In this document: positions 3,826-18,379 of the stretch, piece after piece
Layout: each line of letters begins with the position of its first letter
How positions within the stretch are numbered: position 1 is the stretch's first letter
Source of the DNA: a marine gamma proteobacterium HTCC2089
GTDB lineage: Bacteria; Pseudomonadota; Gammaproteobacteria; Pseudomonadales; Azotimanducaceae
Length of the DNA: 34,282 nt
Reading direction: 5' to 3'
Assembly: GCA_905182905.1 (NCBI GenBank)
Contig: CAJJDH010000096.1
Span: 1 to 34,282, forward strand
Position numbers and translations under genes: made by a program
The notes under the pieces: generated by a model
The model's input: only the letters and a program-made list of their open reading frames with translations
Databases searched by the model: none
Told to the model about the DNA's origin: nothing

Positions 3826-5388
3826 TTATTGCACAATTCTAGACTTACTCTCGCCCCAGTAACGGTCGCGCAACAAGCGTTTATACAGTTTACCTGTTGG
3901 CAAACGAGGCAGTTCAGCTTCGTAGTCGATAGAGCGAGGTACTTTTTGTCGAGACAAATGCTCTGAGAGATAACCTAGCAATTCCTCTGTAAGACTTTCA
4001 TCTCCCACCACGTTAGGAATCGGTTGAATTACAGCTTTCACTTCTTCGCCCAGGTCTACATTAGGCACACCAAAAACTGCAGCATCTGCGACTTTAGGGT
4101 GCGCTATCAAAAGGTCTTCGCATTCTTGAGGGTATATATTTACACCGCCAGAAATAATCATAAAAGTCTTGCGGTCGGTCAAATACAGGAAACCATCACT
4201 GTCCACATACCCTACATCTCCAACTGTCGTCATCGAACCATCCGAAGACGTAGATTCAGCAGTTTTAGTAGGGTCGTTGTGATAACTAAACTCGGTAGCT
4301 GTCTTAAACCACAAAGTGCCCGGTTCGCCTTCGGGTAGTCGATGCATCTCATCATCCAAAATCTCAAGGTCACCCAATACCACACGACCTACTGTACCTT
4401 TGTGAGTTAACCACTCTGCGGAATTACATGCAGCAAAGCCCAAGCCTTCAGTCGCCCCATAGTATTCGTGAATGATGGGCCCCCACCACTCAATCATTTG
4501 CTCTTTTACCATTACCGGACATGGCGCCGCTGCGTGAACTGCTACTTCAAGGGAAGACAAGTCTGCACTAGCGCGCTCAGCCTCGGTGAGCTTCAACATA
4601 CGACTAAACATGGTCGGCACGAGCTGTGAATGAGTAATCTGATAACGTTGAATTAAATGCAAATACTCTAATGGATCAAAGCGCTCCATTATGACCACTG
4701 TGCCGCCAGTACGAATGGTCAAATTGACCGCGGCTTGAGGCGCAGAGTGATAGAGGGGCGCTGGAGAGAGATAAACCATATCTTCACGATAACCCCACAG
4801 ATCACTCAAAAAAGAGTACATAGGCAACGGGTCTTGAGGCGCTTGAACGGGTAGCGGGCGGATAATGCCCTTTGGCTGCCCGGTCGTACCTGACGAATAG
4901 AGCATGGAGGTGCCAAGAGTTTCGTCTGCTAAAGGCGTTGCAGGGTATTCTAAGATCGCCGAGGCATAATCGGTCATCAGCTGCGGCAAATCTGTGTCTG
5001 CAGCGTCGGTAACAAGCACTACTTCAATATTCGGACAGGAACTCAATGCGTCCGCGACAACATCTATCTTTGCCTTTGAGGTAATGAGCACCTTAGATTC
5101 TGAATTATTTACAATGTACGCTAACTCGTCACCAGTGAGGTAAGAGTTGATACAAGTATAATACAAACCTGCCCGCTCTCCTGCCGAGCAGGACTCCATA
5201 TATCGCTCATTATTTTCCATAAAGATGGCGTAATGGTCTTGGAACCCAAGCCCTTGGTCACGAAGAAAATGCGCTAGTTTATTCGAACGCGCCTCAAACT
5301 CTGCGTAACTCACAGCAATACCGCTTCCGGCCATTATAAATGCCGGTCTATCCGGATTGGCTATCGCGTATTGCCCTGAATACATCAA
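3826..5388 (-). CDS. acyl-CoA synthetase (ANL superfamily, AMP-forming)
   Basis: A 520-aa enzyme of the adenylate-forming superfamily. The P-loop-like motif SSGTTGQPKG is at 165-174, YYGATEG at 309-315, GDVGYVDSDGFLYLTDRK at 390-407 and the hinge ISGGVNIYP at 412-420. K500 in LPTGKLYKR is the expected adenylation lysine. The reaction is carboxylate + ATP + CoA to acyl-CoA. The sequence resembles long-chain/terpenoid/steroid-type FadD ligases rather than acetyl-CoA synthetase, but the acid is not predictable. AGGAG precedes the ATG. The gene follows the isomerase-like gene by 93 bp on the same strand, so it probably activates the acid produced by that cassette (inference). Confidence 0.93.
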   Translation of the reverse strand: MMYSGQYAIANPDRPAFIMAGSGIAVSYAEFEARSNKLAHFLRDQGLGFQDHYAIFMENNERYMESCSAGERAGLYYTCINSYLTGDELAYIVNNSESKVLITSKAKIDVVADALSSCPNIEVVLVTDAADTDLPQLMTDYASAILEYPATPLADETLGTSMLYSSGTTGQPKGIIRPLPVQAPQDPLPMYSFLSDLWGYREDMVYLSPAPLYHSAPQAAVNLTIRTGGTVVIMERFDPLEYLHLIQRYQITHSQLVPTMFSRMLKLTEAERASADLSSLEVAVHAAAPCPVMVKEQMIEWWGPIIHEYYGATEGLGFAACNSAEWLTHKGTVGRVVLGDLEILDDEMHRLPEGEPGTLWFKTATEFSYHNDPTKTAESTSSDGSMTTVGDVGYVDSDGFLYLTDRKTFMIISGGVNIYPQECEDLLIAHPKVADAAVFGVPNVDLGEEVKAVIQPIPNVVGDESLTEELLGYLSEHLSRQKVPRSIDYEAELPRLPTGKLYKRLLRDRYWGESKSRIVQ

Positions 5389-5481
5389 ACTCTCCTATTC
5401 TTAGTTTTGTTTACTAACGCCTATAACTGCGCGGAACTTTTTGTTAGTTTTTGGTTAGCTGATTTTGGCCTGGCAACAATG

Positions 5482-5970
5482 CTAGCTTGCTTTCGCCTTC
5501 TCAAATGCTGCTAAAGCAAAAATTGTTACGGCAATAAATGTAAAGACCATACCAGCCCCCCCACCCAGAAAAGCAATTGCTCCGGCCATATCGCCCTCGC
5601 CAAAAGGTGTTGCGGAAACTGACAAGCCTCTGTTATCTGCAAAGTTACCCGCCCAGTAAAAAACAGTATTCGCCCAGCCAGTTATAATCATACCCCACGC
5701 TGCCCACTTTTCGCGGCGGCCTGTTAGATCAAGTGCCTGTATCAAGTAAGCCGCGCCGGCAATCATCACGCCGTTCAAAATGCCGCCAACATGGGCCGCC
5801 TGCCACCCTCTAGTAGAACCAGGAATTGCTACCTTCCATTCAGGTAATGGCCATAAGGTCACCGCATCCAGTAGCGAGAATATAAGCATCAATCCAGATA
5901 CCAGACCAATGAGCAATACGACCATCGCATTACCAATAACCAAAAATCTTAACTTGTTGTCTTGAGCCAC
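5482..5970 (-). CDS. styrene-oxide-isomerase-like integral membrane protein (StyC family)
   Basis: A 162-aa protein with about four membrane helices (roughly 9-34, 58-80, 88-108 and 128-155). Three blocks match styrene oxide isomerase StyC as I recall it: PGSTRGWQAAHVGGILNGVM (50-69), GWANTVFYWAGNFADNRGL (98-116) and PFGEGDM (122-128). StyC is a haem-b membrane enzyme that turns epoxides into aldehydes by Meinwald rearrangement. The residues reported for haem ligation and substrate contact (H58, N64, Y103 in StyC) fall here at H60, N66 and Y105, a constant offset of two. The start is GTG at 5970, six bases after GGAGAA; only 13 bp separate it from the PF10118 gene. No styAB or styD is visible, so the natural substrate is probably not styrene. 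The assignment rests on remembered sequence. Confidence 0.8.
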   Translation of the reverse strand: MAQDNKLRFLVIGNAMVVLLIGLVSGLMLIFSLLDAVTLWPLPEWKVAIPGSTRGWQAAHVGGILNGVMIAGAAYLIQALDLTGRREKWAAWGMIITGWANTVFYWAGNFADNRGLSVSATPFGEGDMAGAIAFLGGGAGMVFTFIAVTIFALAAFEKAKAS

Positions 5971-5983
5971 GAACTTCTCCGAC

Positions 5984-6868
5984 TTATGAATTTAGTACGC
6001 TGTTCATTTTTTCATTATCTAAAGTCAGAACATCATTGTCCTGACGATAGAATTTTCGCCACGCTACCGCGATAGGATTTTGTTCAGCATTACAAATTGG
6101 GTGATTGCGCGGGTGGTACGAGGAAGCAAATACTGGGAGCGCCGCATAACCTAGATCCCAGGCAAAACTAGCGAAAAACTTCCAAGCCCGTACTTTGGCT
6201 AACACACCACGATAACGAGACTCACCGCGAACCATTATTCGATAGGCTTTAAAGGTCTCCCAACAGATATGCAGAAAGGCATAAACGATCATGAAACGTC
6301 GGTAAATCTCTGCATTAGGGTAATTGGCCCTGAAAAAATCAAAAGCTACCCCACCGTGCTCTACCTCTTCTACCTGATGCCAAACCCATAGTGCACGAAT
6401 GGTTGGATCGGCTTCCTGCATCAATTCTTCATAACGATTAAGAATGATCATGCCGCCAAGGAATGTAAAAGTTTCGTATCCCGCGGTAAATCCTATGTGA
6501 AATTTCTTCCCCTTGTCAGCAAAAGCGGCGGCGAAGTAATTCTGTGCATCTTGATCTAATGCTGGAAGCTCTGGGTAACTCTCGCCCATTTTTGCAGTCC
6601 ACTGCACAAAATTGAAAGCATGATGAGACTCCTGTCCTATCAAAGCCTGAACCTCGGAGAGCAGTTTCTCATCAGCAATATCTTTGCGATAAGCACGCAT
6701 AGTCTTAACTAAAAAACGCTCAAAATGTGGAACATGAATACCCAGCGCATTGATAAACATCGAAAATTCAGGATTGGTGTGACTCCACAACGGATCGATA
6801 GCCTGATCATTTGCTAGGTCAAATTTCAGCGGACGCACTGGTATCTCGTCCATTGGATGTGTGCTCAT
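5984..6868 (-). CDS. PF10118 'metal-dependent hydrolase' family protein, ferritin-like
   Basis: A 294-aa soluble protein; the start chosen is the ATG at 6868 directly after GAGGAGGG. A longer reading to 6916 would add 16 residues ahead of that strong ribosome site. The family (COG3687) is annotated as predicted metal-dependent hydrolase, but the residues fit a di-iron four-helix bundle: E50 (PHFERFL), E80-x-x-H83 (GQESHHAF), E132 (GYETFTF) and E168-x-x-H171 (EEVEHGGV). The spacings of 30, 52 and 36 residues are typical of ferritin-like oxygenases and oxidases. It is the first gene of the minus-strand run, 13 bp before the isomerase-like gene, so the two probably act together. Whether it hydrolyses or oxidises is open; I favour oxidation. 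Confidence 0.85.
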   Translation of the reverse strand: MSTHPMDEIPVRPLKFDLANDQAIDPLWSHTNPEFSMFINALGIHVPHFERFLVKTMRAYRKDIADEKLLSEVQALIGQESHHAFNFVQWTAKMGESYPELPALDQDAQNYFAAAFADKGKKFHIGFTAGYETFTFLGGMIILNRYEELMQEADPTIRALWVWHQVEEVEHGGVAFDFFRANYPNAEIYRRFMIVYAFLHICWETFKAYRIMVRGESRYRGVLAKVRAWKFFASFAWDLGYAALPVFASSYHPRNHPICNAEQNPIAVAWRKFYRQDNDVLTLDNEKMNSVLNS

Positions 6869-7051: not shown

Positions 7052-8845
7052 ATGAAAAATTCACTATTGCAAAAGGCCGCCGCCTCGATTGCCACATGTC
7101 TGGTATTGGTCATGTGCTTTATCAACCCAAGCTACGCGGAGAATAAACCAGCCGTTAATTCATCCTCTACGGTCGGCACCTGTGATTATTATAAGGCTGG
7201 CGAAAAGCACCTTTACTGGGGTGACCTCCACGTACACACAGCCTACTCCTTGGATGCCTATGCCTTTGGCACACTAAAGACGCCCGCAGAGGCCTTTGCC
7301 TTTGCCCGCGGGCAAGCTATGACGCTCCAAGACGGTTCCGTTGCGCAACTGGAACGGCCATTAGATTTCGCAGCGGTGACAGATCACGCCGAGTGGTTCG
7401 ACTTGATGCATATATGCACAGACCCGCAGAACTTTGACGATCCTTACTGCGAACGTTTGCGAACAGACAGTTCTACGGAAAATGGCTCAAGCTTGTTCGT
7501 AGATTACGTCATTCCAACCATTACCCTTGAATCGCCACAAGCAACCCCAGTATGTATCGCAAACCCAGCAAAGTGCTCTGCAGCAACAAAATCTCAGTGG
7601 CAGCGCGTACAGGACCAAGCCAATGCAGCCAACGAACCCTGTCAATTCACAGCACAAATTGGCTACGAATGGTCCTACACCAAATCCTTTAGTCACTCGC
7701 ATAGAAATATTATTTTCGCCAATGACAAAGTAACCAAGGACGCAATCGACTACATAAGAAATCCCACACTTAACGACTTATGGAAAAAGTTAGATGAGCA
7801 ATGCCGACCGGAGGATGGGTGCGACGTTTTGGCCATACCGCATAATACCAACATGGGCGACGGCACCACATTCGACGTAGAAACCGAAGATGACAGAACA
7901 TTGCAGTTGCGCAGTAAATACGAACGCTTGGTGGAGATACATCAGGAGAAAGGCAACAGCGAATGTTTGTCGCCGCTCAAATCTGATGAATCCGGAGATT
8001 GTAGTTTTGAAAATTACATCACAGATCATTCACGCCCCAAAGCCAAAGACAAATTCACTGACGAACAATGGACAAAAATGCGCAGTACCTACGTGCGCAG
8101 CCTGTTACTAAGGGGCTTAGCCGCTTACGCTAGATCTGGAGAAACAAAGCTAAACCCTCTTCAAATGGGCATTATTGGTTCTACGGATAATCATGCCGGC
8201 ACGCCTGGCCACGTTAATGAAGCGGCGTGGCAAGGCGCAGTGTTTGGCTTAGGCGATCTGGATAGAACCATGACGCGCAGGACCTTCAACCCCGGCGGGT
8301 TGGTTGCGGTTTGGGCTGAGGAAAACACCAGAGAAGGTATTTTCGCGGCTTTAAAACGCCGCGAAGTTTACGCAACCAGTGGACCTAGAATTAGCGTACG
8401 ACTCACTGCTAATACTAACGGCAAAAACCTTAGCTGCTCCGGCAGTGAACAAGGCAATCAAAATGCTATGGTGAGCATGGGGGGAGATTTCCACACAGCT
8501 CAAGGATTACCTTCATTTAAGGTGCACGCTCAAGCAGATCAAACGCCGCTGCAGCAAATTGAAATAATCAAAGGTCAATACGACAATGGCGAATTTAAGG
8601 AATCGAAAAGTACAATTTGGCAGCAAGCAGACAATGGCGGCGACGTATGCCAAGTGTGGGAGGATCAAGACTTCAACCCCAAGGCACCGGCATTCTGGTA
8701 CGCACGAATAAAACAGGCAGCTACACCAAGGTGGTCTGCGAAGTTGTGTCAAAAAGCTGGGCGGTGTGAGGAATTCCCTGATGCAGAGGTAATGATCCAA
8801 GAACGTGCCTGGACTTCTCCTATATGGTACCTGCCGCAGCAGTAA
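7052..8845 (+). CDS. secreted DUF3604 protein (PHP-like metal site)
   Basis: A 597-aa protein with an N-terminal signal peptide (about 1-29, ending SYA). The DUF3604 pattern is clear: YWGDLHVHTAYSLDA (H60, H62), VTDHAEWFDL (D111, H112, E114), LAIPHNTNMGDG (H264) and GSTDNHAGTPG (D379, H381). These HxH, DH and H motifs resemble a PHP/amidohydrolase metal centre, so a periplasmic metal-dependent hydrolase is likely; the substrate is unknown. It has many cysteines for a gammaproteobacterial protein, consistent with export and disulfides. It is transcribed divergently from the PF10118 gene across 183 bp. The ribosome site AAGGTG precedes the ATG. Confidence 0.9.
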   Translation: MKNSLLQKAAASIATCLVLVMCFINPSYAENKPAVNSSSTVGTCDYYKAGEKHLYWGDLHVHTAYSLDAYAFGTLKTPAEAFAFARGQAMTLQDGSVAQLERPLDFAAVTDHAEWFDLMHICTDPQNFDDPYCERLRTDSSTENGSSLFVDYVIPTITLESPQATPVCIANPAKCSAATKSQWQRVQDQANAANEPCQFTAQIGYEWSYTKSFSHSHRNIIFANDKVTKDAIDYIRNPTLNDLWKKLDEQCRPEDGCDVLAIPHNTNMGDGTTFDVETEDDRTLQLRSKYERLVEIHQEKGNSECLSPLKSDESGDCSFENYITDHSRPKAKDKFTDEQWTKMRSTYVRSLLLRGLAAYARSGETKLNPLQMGIIGSTDNHAGTPGHVNEAAWQGAVFGLGDLDRTMTRRTFNPGGLVAVWAEENTREGIFAALKRREVYATSGPRISVRLTANTNGKNLSCSGSEQGNQNAMVSMGGDFHTAQGLPSFKVHAQADQTPLQQIEIIKGQYDNGEFKESKSTIWQQADNGGDVCQVWEDQDFNPKAPAFWYARIKQAATPRWSAKLCQKAGRCEEFPDAEVMIQERAWTSPIWYLPQQ

Positions 8846-8864
8846 CCGCGAATCGAGATATAGC

Positions 8865-8889
8865 TGCTAGGGCAAATTCCGCCCTAGCA
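8865..8889. terminator. hairpin between convergent genes
   Basis: A perfect 9-bp stem, TGCTAGGGC and GCCCTAGCA, has a 7-nt loop. It lies between the ends of the DUF3604 gene and the convergent secreted-protein gene. The U-run is poor on both strands (ATTTAT on plus), so it may be a weak bidirectional terminator or an mRNA 3'-end stabiliser. Confidence 0.6.
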
Positions 8890-8904
8890 ATTTATCCCAG
8901 AGGC

Positions 8905-9960
8905 TTATAGCTCCTCTGTGGGTTCCTGCCACTCGCTCTCCAGCAATCGTGCACCGCGCAAAATGTTGCCCATAGCATAATTACCCTCATGACAAGCGTA
9001 CTCGTAAACCTTGCCCTCACTGGCTTGCCAAACATACTTCCCGCTCCAAGGCTGAGTCCAAGCGGTATCGTCCACCACGGTGAAGTCATATATCAAATTA
9101 CCCGTCTCGGCCATGCTGAAGCGCTCTACAACATGCAAATTTTCATCTGCGCCTGGAAGACCATTAACATTCTTAAAATTCTTGGTCTCAACCACTAAGA
9201 CATCCCCTTCCCAATAGCCTATTGAGTCGCCCAACCACTTGCGGTTAACGTCGGGCGAGTGTTCAGAGTCAATGCGAATGATTCGAGCATCATGAACCAT
9301 CTCTTGCAAAATCATGACATGGTCTTCAGTTTGCACGATACGCTTGTAGTTGTTGTATAGGCTAGAGATCGTTGGCACAGTGGAACCAAAGCTGATTAAA
9401 CAACGCTCCGAGGGCGCTAAACTCTCAGGACCGTCGAAGGGACCGGGACCGTCATGGGCCAGCCATGAGGCTTTGCCGTCATTCTCATAAAGGAAGCTCT
9501 GATACAGAGCACCAAGACGGCCTTGAGCTTCAGGCACCATTTCTGGCTGTCGACCATTTGGTGGATCGTAGATAACCGAGGTTCTAACCTTGCCATCCAT
9601 TTCAAATACTTCGCTGCCCGGATCAATCCAAAAGGCGTTATACCCACCAACGCCACCTGATCCAGCGGTATTGTCACCATCACCTCCAGCGGGTGGTGCC
9701 TCTCGATCGGGATCGCTCTCGCTCTCCGACGCCCACTCAATTGCAAGACCAGCAGCCCAATTAAGTAAATCGGCAAACCATGGGTAAAGATATTCTGTTT
9801 CACCAAGAAACTCAGGTCGCTGCAATGGCGTTAAAGTGCCGGTGTCGTACACGCCGGAAAAGTCAGGCTTACCAGTAGCTGTGCGCTTGATTTCTGCCTG
9901 CACAAACACCGTACCCAGCAGCACGATACCGCCAACAGTTGCGAGAATTAATTTTTTCAT
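8905..9960 (-). CDS. secreted protein of a widespread uncharacterised family
   Basis: A 351-aa protein with a signal peptide (MKKLILATVGGIVLLGTVFVQA). The mature start KPDFSGVYDTGTLTPLQRP and the core blocks ERCLISFG, YNNYKRIVQT, MVHDARIIRID, WLGDSIGYWEGDVLVVETKN, HVVERFSM and YEYACHEGNYAM recur, as I remember, in many proteobacterial and acidobacterial secreted proteins of unknown function. Residues about 78-102 are an acidic and glycine-rich spacer (SESDPDREAPPAGGDGDNT). There is no transmembrane segment after the signal. The gene converges on the DUF3604 gene, so the two are not co-transcribed. No function can be stated. Confidence 0.85.
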   Translation of the reverse strand: MKKLILATVGGIVLLGTVFVQAEIKRTATGKPDFSGVYDTGTLTPLQRPEFLGETEYLYPWFADLLNWAAGLAIEWASESESDPDREAPPAGGDGDNTAGSGGVGGYNAFWIDPGSEVFEMDGKVRTSVIYDPPNGRQPEMVPEAQGRLGALYQSFLYENDGKASWLAHDGPGPFDGPESLAPSERCLISFGSTVPTISSLYNNYKRIVQTEDHVMILQEMVHDARIIRIDSEHSPDVNRKWLGDSIGYWEGDVLVVETKNFKNVNGLPGADENLHVVERFSMAETGNLIYDFTVVDDTAWTQPWSGKYVWQASEGKVYEYACHEGNYAMGNILRGARLLESEWQEPTEEL

Positions 9961-17447: not shown

Positions 17448-18215
17448 CTAGTGATTCCACCAAGCGCGGTCAGAGAAGGAGCGTAAATCCATCTCATGGG
17501 TCCACACTGATCTATGTTGTTGATGAATATGGTAATAAGTGTCAGCAATACGCTCAGGCAACATTAAGCCATCATGCTCCATGCCCTTTGCTTCACGAAG
17601 GGCCTGAAATTTTTCCTCACCCAACATTTTACCCAAGGTGTCGGGCGCATCCACGGCGCCGTCAATAACGATATGCGCCACGTGAATCCCTTTGGGCGCA
17701 AATTCAGCATTTAGCGACTGGCACAGCATCCGCCGCCCACCCATAGCCGCTGCATGGGAATGCTGGCCTGCATTACCGCGTACGGCAGATGTAGCTGATG
17801 TCACTAGAATGGTGCCGCGCCCTCTTTCTTGCATAAATGGTGTAACCACTGAGGCCATCCTGAACAACGCAAACGTTGCCATCCGCCAACCAATCTCAAA
17901 AGCCTTATAACTTGTGTTAGCCAATGACCGGTCACCAATTTGTGCACCCAGGTTAAATACCACTGCATCAATAGGACCGATATTCGCTTCAACGTCAGCA
18001 ATTCTTTCCTCAAGCGCATCAGGCTCTACAGCATTGAGCAAATAGCCAGATGCAGAACCACCGCCAGCCTCAATCTCAGCCACCATTTTCTTCAGACCAC
18101 CTTCATCACTGCGCCGACACAACACAGTGTGATAGCCCTCTTGCGCGAATCGTTTTGCCACGTTGCCACCAATTCCTGCACCGGCACCTATTACTAAACA
18201 AACTGGCTTAATCAA
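17448..18215 (-). CDS. SDR-fold protein with degenerate catalytic triad
   Basis: A 255-aa Rossmann protein. The start chosen is TTG at 18215 after GGGAGAAGGAAC, giving MIKPVCLVIGAGAGIGG; a reading to 18272 would add 19 residues before the nucleotide-binding strand, which the family does not need. The cofactor loop GAGAGIG (10-16) and FNLGAQIG are present. The serine strand TILVTSATSAVRG is kept, but the usual Y-x-x-x-K reads H154-A-A-A-M158. HVAHIVIDGAVDAPD near the C-terminus marks a divergent SDR branch that often lacks the tyrosine. It binds NAD(P) or is a non-classical reductase. It is divergent from the sulfurtransferase gene. Confidence 0.87.
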   Translation of the reverse strand: MIKPVCLVIGAGAGIGGNVAKRFAQEGYHTVLCRRSDEGGLKKMVAEIEAGGGSASGYLLNAVEPDALEERIADVEANIGPIDAVVFNLGAQIGDRSLANTSYKAFEIGWRMATFALFRMASVVTPFMQERGRGTILVTSATSAVRGNAGQHSHAAAMGGRRMLCQSLNAEFAPKGIHVAHIVIDGAVDAPDTLGKMLGEEKFQALREAKGMEHDGLMLPERIADTYYHIHQQHRSVWTHEMDLRSFSDRAWWNH

Positions 18216-18379
18216 GTTCCTTCTCCCAATTGTGCTCTTTAAATCTAACCCACGTGAAAGTCGCGGGAGCAAAATACAACTAGAGCAAATTTACCAGCCT
18301 TAATCCAGTCTAGAAATCGGCCCTTGCAAAGACCTCGTAATTGGGCAAAAGTTTTGCAAATCCCGAAAAGGTACCAGAC

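Follow-up and report, generated by a model that had tools for sequence, protein, structure and literature searches.

A 34,282-nucleotide stretch of DNA from the marine gamma proteobacterium HTCC2089 (the window; contig 96 of a 2.83-Mb assembly that is 94% complete) carries three consecutive genes on the minus strand, which encode a protein of the PF10118 family, a membrane protein resembling the styrene oxide isomerase (SOI) StyC, and an AMP-binding acyl-CoA ligase (Table 1). An earlier reading, made from the sequence alone, had described these genes as one cassette with gaps of 13 bp between the first two and 93 bp before the ligase, and the open reading frames (ORFs) confirm this layout. Searches of the whole assembly found a single PF10118 gene and a single StyC-like gene, and these lie side by side. 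Since the sole copies of both genes adjoin, and since the pairing recurs in relatives, the arrangement exceeds what would be expected by chance. Promoter- and terminator-like sites were present only at chance level.

Table 1. The three adjacent genes and their positions in the window
Feature	Position	Strand	Remarks
PF10118 ferritin-like protein, probable diiron oxygenase	5984-6868	-	294 aa, ATG at 6868
StyC-like membrane protein, probable haem epoxide isomerase	5482-5970	-	162 aa
AMP-binding acyl-CoA ligase	3826-5388	-	likely start ATG at 5385; local third gene

Conservation of the PF10118-SOI gene pair

With the window's StyC-like protein as query, we found 30 loci in a collection of species genomes, a set that favours close kin (ORFs in loci analysed by script are greedy calls). 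Among them, the nearest relatives of the window come from the K189A clade and from metagenome-assembled genomes of uncultured gammaproteobacteria or Pseudomonadales. A PF10118 gene lies directly upstream of the SOI gene, on the same strand, in 25 of these loci. The paired genes share a strand, with -25 to 128 bp between the matched domains, and in two further loci (L062 and L084) the order of the genes is reversed, yet the linkage is retained. The sequence-only reading had made its proposal depend on the neighbourhood being kept in relatives, and in this respect it has survived. The other genes around the pair vary between lineages and are mostly lineage-specific, so they do not name a substrate.

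The ligase fared differently. The third gene does encode an acyl-CoA ligase, as had been claimed (PF00501, E = 1.6e-67, and PF13193; the nearest NCBIfam model, FadD4, scores below its cut-off). However, by tblastn this ligase stands beside the pair only in the window and in three of the 30 related loci (L002, L004 and L005), all close kin; in L022 and L031 the sequence stops less than 0.8 kb from the SOI gene, too soon to show a ligase. We therefore rejected the ligase as a conserved core member and regard it as a local addition, so that the genome search proposed earlier, for PF10118, StyC-like and AMP-ligase genes together, recovered a conserved pair and not a conserved three-gene cassette.

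The linkage is also seen within the window's own genus. Among 40 genomes, 16 have an SOI gene and 13 have a PF10118 protein with E < 1e-60 against the pair profile, a limit chosen after a gap in the score list had been seen; all 13 lie beside the SOI gene. No PF10118 protein of this type reaches the same limit in any of the 24 genomes without SOI (Fisher test, 4.7e-8, kinship ignored). A sample of the whole order (390 genomes, 36 with SOI-like genes, loci taken from 30 hits) is less biased than the query-found set. There, PF10118 lies within about 1.5 kb of SOI in 13 of 30 loci, of which seven are new and six were known before (L175, L176, L177, L180, L189 and L178, the last identical to L029). 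A phylum sample of 398 genomes gave a StyC match in four, one of them weak, and PF10118 in at least 65, a lower bound with scoring that covered some candidates per genome; most PF10118 genes are thus found outside the SOI pairing. PF10118 relatives also occur in 67 plasmid records, 52 of them from Acinetobacter, all under 60% identity.

The paired PF10118 proteins belong to one branch of the family. In a quick tree of 95 sequences (SH-aLRT support only; duplicate places and the near-copies L009 and L012 dropped), all 36 SOI-adjacent rows fall in one clade of 43 rows (SH-aLRT 99), and no SOI-like gene was found in the fetched stretches beside any of the 52 rows outside it, even with a widened profile. 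The SOI label changes 4 times on this tree, against 29.1 times when shuffled (0 of 500 shuffles). The clade has a signature: all 43 members lack His133 and have acquired His200, while outside the clade His133 is present in 51 of 52 rows and His200 in 3 of 52. Seven full-length SOI-adjacent PF10118 proteins obtained later, whose identity to the closest of the earlier sequences is 31 to 68%, have all lost His133, and six have His200 (L190 has Gly). On the tree of the partner proteins (53 SOI rows, 37 beside PF10118; duplicate places dropped, as was L031, whose gene is cut by the contig end), the PF10118-neighbour label changes 8 times, against 13.9 when shuffled (0 of 500). Furthermore, the distances of the two partners are correlated in a mirror-tree comparison (r = 0.855, 35 pairs, 0 of 2000 permutations), also within the window's SOI clade (r = 0.435, 27 pairs, 0 of 2000). 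We are close to certain that the PF10118 gene and the StyC-like gene of the window form one functional unit. A role of the pair in defence was considered and rejected, as PADLOC returned no match for either protein.

Some neighbours of the pair recur. A DUF3604 gene and a gene for a 351-aa protein lacking a Pfam match (window 7052-9960) adjoin the pair in L002 and L005, and DUF3604 does so also in L004. The product of a window gene for a short-chain dehydrogenase/reductase (17448-18272) is 71% identical over 263 aa to one encoded about 0.7 kb downstream of the pair in a distant lineage (L027). Ferrochelatase genes flank the pair on different sides in L021 (7164-8162) and L029 (10543-11541), which fits a haem partner, in two loci only. 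SOI-less members of the PF10118 clade (L160, L162 and L163) lie in another operon, in which an AMP ligase gene overlaps or abuts them upstream, and a cupin gene and a zinc alcohol dehydrogenase gene follow downstream (Pfam support in L162 only).

Folds and conserved residues of the two proteins

Structure prediction of both protein chains, part of a check proposed by the sequence-only reading, upholds the description of the second gene as StyC-like. The NCBIfam StyC model NF045734 matches the window protein with 107 bits (E = 8.7e-31) and so falls short of its equivalog cut-off of 150; a plain StyC equivalog identity was rejected on this ground. Two solved SOIs match in sequence with E = 1.5e-23 and 7.3e-16. 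The AlphaFold (AF2) model (pLDDT 93.0) has the four-helix SOI fold, and its sole Foldseek match at 1e-3 or better is the cryo-EM SOI structure 8pnu (E = 1.2e-9, TM 0.81/0.84). (The model also bears a weak, non-significant likeness to leukotriene C4 synthase, E 1.6-1.7, TM 0.56-0.62.) The protein keeps residues H58 (the axial haem ligand, H60 in the window protein), N64, N99, Y103 and R112 of the VLB120 enzyme and has Thr in place of D95. According to the accessible part of PMC11374702, H58 of VLB120 SOI ligates ferric haem b, the N99A and Y103A changes inactivate the enzyme, and N64A and D95A impair it. The accessible part of PMC12502698 reports for RoSOI1 that H57A abolishes both haem and activity and that R111A costs much activity in membranes, while D94A is still active in whole cells. 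Given the fold, the kept residues and these mutant data, the window protein likely binds haem and is likely competent as an isomerase.

StyC being the nearest named family, the locus could be thought to reflect ordinary styrene degradation, with a displaced StyC and PF10118 as an incidental neighbour. This is very improbable and has been largely refuted. Apart from the profile score under the equivalog cut-off, three annotated canonical StyC copies on plasmids (L093, L094 and L096) lie with StyA and not with PF10118, and the PF10118 linkage is deep and clade-specific. A search of the window's genome for the StyA domain gave no match, but its control was silent. (The second styC of Rhodococcus opacus 1CP, L095 6471-8492, follows an annotated nitric oxide synthase oxygenase gene and several genes for hypothetical proteins.)

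The catalytic residues are less uniform across the superfamily than the haem ligand: all 90 distinct SOI-like rows have H58, but N99 and Y103 occur together in only 65, and partners without N99/Y103 still adjoin PF10118 (L062, L065, the second copy of L028, L136, L207, L211, L212, L213 and L214). These patterns would suit a StyC-like protein that is chiefly a haem-containing membrane anchor or redox partner and no isomerase, the pair carrying out one joint oxidation at the membrane; a membrane-anchor role of SOI is also proposed in the accessible part of PMC12502698. We consider this rather unlikely. The window's SOI branch retains N64, N99, Y103 and R112. In addition, the SOI copies linked to aldehyde dehydrogenase genes in the clusters described below keep N99 and Y103, and a separate ferredoxin is encoded in five of these six regions.

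Five regions hold an SOI-like gene without N99/Y103 together with its own adjoining PF10118 gene (B-type pairs; L207 6743-8118, L211 225-1594, L212 11453-12824, L213 8605-9974 and L214 7937-9303), and in four of them this pair lies near an A-type SOI. In L089 (G021 contig 119), a second SOI-like copy is broken by stops and a frame change, and an intact copy is present elsewhere in the genome.

The other protein of the pair matches PF10118 (Metal_hydrol) with 148.8 bits, against a gathering cut-off of 33.2 (E = 3.4e-43). Pfam describes the family as a predicted metal-dependent hydrolase. The AF2 model (pLDDT 93.3) is almost entirely helical, and its top Foldseek matches (E 0.05 to about 1, TM about 0.4) are mostly ferritin-like diiron proteins, among them ribonucleotide reductase R2, CmlI, AurF, VlmB, R2-like oxidases, acyl-ACP desaturases and aldehyde-deformylating oxygenase (ADO). 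Because such proteins lead the fold matches, an evident hydrolase identity was rejected. Eight residues are invariant in all 95 homologues: E50, E80, H83, E132, H164, E167, E168 and H171. Seven of these resemble, as a sequence pattern, the AurF type, with E50, E80, H83, E132, E168 and H171 as the six ligands and H164 as the seventh His. The accessible part of PMC12154687 gives E101, E137, H140, E198, E229 and H232 as ligands, with a seventh histidine, H225, in N-oxygenases, and the local spacings E-x2-H and H-x3-E-x2-H are equal to those of PF10118. The next Pfam match is the AurF family itself, PF11583, below threshold (15.2 bits against 29.6, E = 0.012 for the window protein; E = 6.1e-4 for L027). 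Searches of PDB sequences with PF10118, as a single sequence or a profile, returned nothing credible. The diiron-type residues noted earlier in the first gene are thus supported by fold matches and an invariant ligand set, which make the product a probable diiron protein; our reading is a diiron oxygenase or oxidase with a distant likeness to AurF.

This resemblance raises the question of whether the protein is an AurF-like N-oxygenase, with the haem protein rearranging an N-O product and not an epoxide. The match of E50, E80-x2-H83, E132 and H164-x3-E168-x2-H171 to the published ligands and seventh His, the sub-threshold PF11583 match, and the presence of CmlI, AurF and VlmB among the fold matches all speak for this. 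We nevertheless find it quite improbable, since the ligand set is invariant in 95 of 95 rows and hence holds nothing specific to the SOI-linked members, since the cluster neighbours are of the aldehyde dehydrogenase and acyl-CoA ligase type, and since the known chemistry of the SOI partner concerns epoxides.

Clusters with ferredoxin, aldehyde dehydrogenase and CoA ligase

Genomes of g242, a genus of the same order, have up to seven SOI-like matches each. We fetched 16 regions from 10 genomes for their SOI-like matches. Three regions of g242 (L208, L209 and L212) contain all six of the following genes: PF10118, SOI, a Fer2 [2Fe-2S] ferredoxin, an aldehyde dehydrogenase (ALDH), an AMP ligase and a MalT-type LuxR regulator. 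Five of the six are found in L206 (without the ligase) and L214 (without the ferredoxin). The other 11 regions hold fewer, and L205, L210, L215, L219 and L220 have no PF10118. Outside the window's class, all six genes lie within about 15 kb in L132 (genome G088), with SOI 9.9 kb from PF10118 and on the opposite strand. The complete set was thus counted in three genomes, one of them of another class. The g242 regions themselves supplied the sequences for the ferredoxin, ALDH, ligase and LuxR profiles, so that matches within them are built in and L132 is the sole independent case. Four genes of L208 (ferredoxin, ALDH, ligase and LuxR) and two of L132 (ferredoxin and ALDH) have support from Pfam; no NCBIfam model is above its cut-off among the matches listed for the L208 ALDH and ligase. 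Two loci of ordinary PF10118 are matched by the cluster profiles as well, L070 through a ligase gene and L076 through a LuxR gene.

The ALDH-linked SOI copies (L206, L208, L209, L212, L214 and L132) keep N99 and Y103 and have Ala in place of D95; R112 is replaced by His in all of them but the copy of L209. TonB receptor genes stand beside some clusters (L206, by Pfam; similar genes in L209 and L214), which may suggest that a larger natural compound is taken up.

The sequence-only reading had inferred a route from oxygenase through isomerase and ALDH to CoA ligase. The gene set for it is indeed clustered in L208, L209, L212 and L132, although the window's own ligase is not conserved, and the cluster ligases are only distant homologues of it. 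That reading had also noted that an ALDH would be needed and is missing from the window; none was found there, and the gene accompanies the pair in the same four regions. On another contig of the window's genome (L221), ligase and ALDH genes lie 42 bp apart, and their products share 33% and 40% identity with the L208 counterparts. By sequence these are candidates, no more, for the later steps in the window's organism.

Cytochrome P450 genes whose best NCBIfam match is SolI (below cut-off) occur near PF10118 or the clusters in L159 (1677-2930), L137 (6806-8068), L017 (7337-8602) and L213 (17269-18555). Such an enzyme could in principle make the epoxide, with PF10118 acting after the isomerase, for example in an oxidation or deformylation of the carbonyl. 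The weak fold matches of PF10118 do include aldehyde-deformylating oxygenases, and most other genes of the ALDH regions are without annotation, which leaves room for a further oxygenase. This order of steps nonetheless seems improbable to us, because the ALDH of the six clusters already covers the carbonyl step there.

A proposed epoxide route and its nearest known counterparts

The reading that we favour is a route in which a diiron epoxygenase and a haem Lewis-acid isomerase, followed by ALDH and CoA ligase, take the place of StyAB and StyC on a substrate other than styrene; we assign it a probability of about 0.58. It is based on the genes, the modelled folds, the residues, the conserved pairing and the full clusters in three other genomes. 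The PF10118 protein would bind a diiron centre, activate O2 and form an epoxide by oxygenating an unsaturated and probably hydrophobic compound, with electrons from the [2Fe-2S] ferredoxin where one is encoded nearby. The membrane protein of the SOI superfamily would receive this epoxide as the shared intermediate and, through its haem, convert it to an aldehyde or ketone by Lewis-acid Meinwald rearrangement. The ALDH would then oxidise the carbonyl to an acid, and the AMP ligase would activate the acid to an acyl-CoA, giving the route its direction. The substrate is presumably not styrene, or not styrene only.

Several observations weigh against this proposal. With regard to the pairing, five of the 30 query-found SOI copies have no adjoining PF10118 (L015, L018, L020, the first copy of L028, and L030), as is also true of the three canonical StyC copies, and in the order sample PF10118 is absent from about 1.5 kb around SOI in 17 of 30 loci. 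Genomes G027 and G455 yielded an SOI-like gene but no PF10118, and conversely PF10118 proteins of the clade occur in the SOI-less genomes G002, G006 and G010. The partner trees are not fully congruent: the second SOI of L028 groups with L065, and its PF10118 with L082 and L083. With regard to the proteins, the Foldseek search with the PF10118 model gave nothing at E 1e-3 or better (best 4.7e-2), the seventh-His pattern is, in the accessible part of PMC12154687, characteristic of N-oxygenases, which act on nitrogen, and the openly licensed literature searched yielded no reported activity for any PF10118 protein. D95 of the VLB120 SOI is Thr in the window protein. SOI-like proteins without N99/Y103 adjoin PF10118 at the loci named above and also occur without it (L205, L210 and L215); since N99/Y103 are lost in some partners, some pairs may carry out other chemistry, and not every pair need be an epoxide isomerase system. 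Finally, profile scans of the window's genes found neither a ferredoxin nor an ALDH.

The tie to an enzyme of established chemistry offers a specific, testable function for one branch of PF10118. It also shows SOI-like haem proteins to be a broad superfamily, as many as seven matches occurring in a single genome, and no styrene speciality. We put forward more tentatively, at somewhat less than even odds, that the PF10118 proteins linked to SOI constitute a family of diiron epoxygenases, hitherto unrecognised and fed by ferredoxin. Together with haem isomerases of a superfamily far broader than StyC, they would make up a widespread epoxide pathway (oxygenase, isomerase, ALDH and CoA ligase) by which marine and other Pseudomonadota process unsaturated natural compounds, and the change from His133 to His200 would mark the switch to this chemistry. 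The clusters of L208, L209, L212 and L132 offer expression targets for discovering the substrate and for new epoxidation or Meinwald biocatalysts. In the openly licensed literature searched, we did not find the oxygenase family, the pairing or the width of the SOI superfamily described. Nor did we find openly licensed papers on COG3687, on a predicted metal-dependent hydrolase together with diiron, or linking SOI with a metal-dependent hydrolase or relevant diiron protein.

The closest known system is StyABCD with phenylacetate CoA ligase, and the pathway logic is already established for styrene according to the accessible part of PMC13209321. Both comprise an oxygenase, a haem epoxide isomerase, an ALDH and a CoA ligase, and the isomerases are homologous, with the fold (as modelled) and the haem ligand in common. 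However, the place that the flavin enzymes StyA and StyB have in the styrene route is taken here by a ferritin-like PF10118 protein, joined by a ferredoxin in the complete clusters; neither StyA nor StyB was found among the Pfam-scanned window genes. The window isomerase scores below the StyC cut-off and has D95 replaced. On the oxygenase side, AurF, CmlI, VlmB and Dob3 (PF11583) share the helical ferritin-like fold, by weak match, and the six ligands with the seventh His. PF10118 is nevertheless a separate family with a sub-threshold sequence match to them, and it differs in its linkage to an epoxide-isomerase homologue and in the clade-specific His200. A similar order of steps is known from the ring-epoxide route of PaaABCE and PaaG, where a ferritin-like diiron epoxidase acts before an isomerase that rearranges the epoxide. 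There, PaaG is a soluble crotonase-type enzyme that acts on CoA thioesters and not a haem membrane protein, and PF10118 belongs to another family than the PaaABCE epoxidase.

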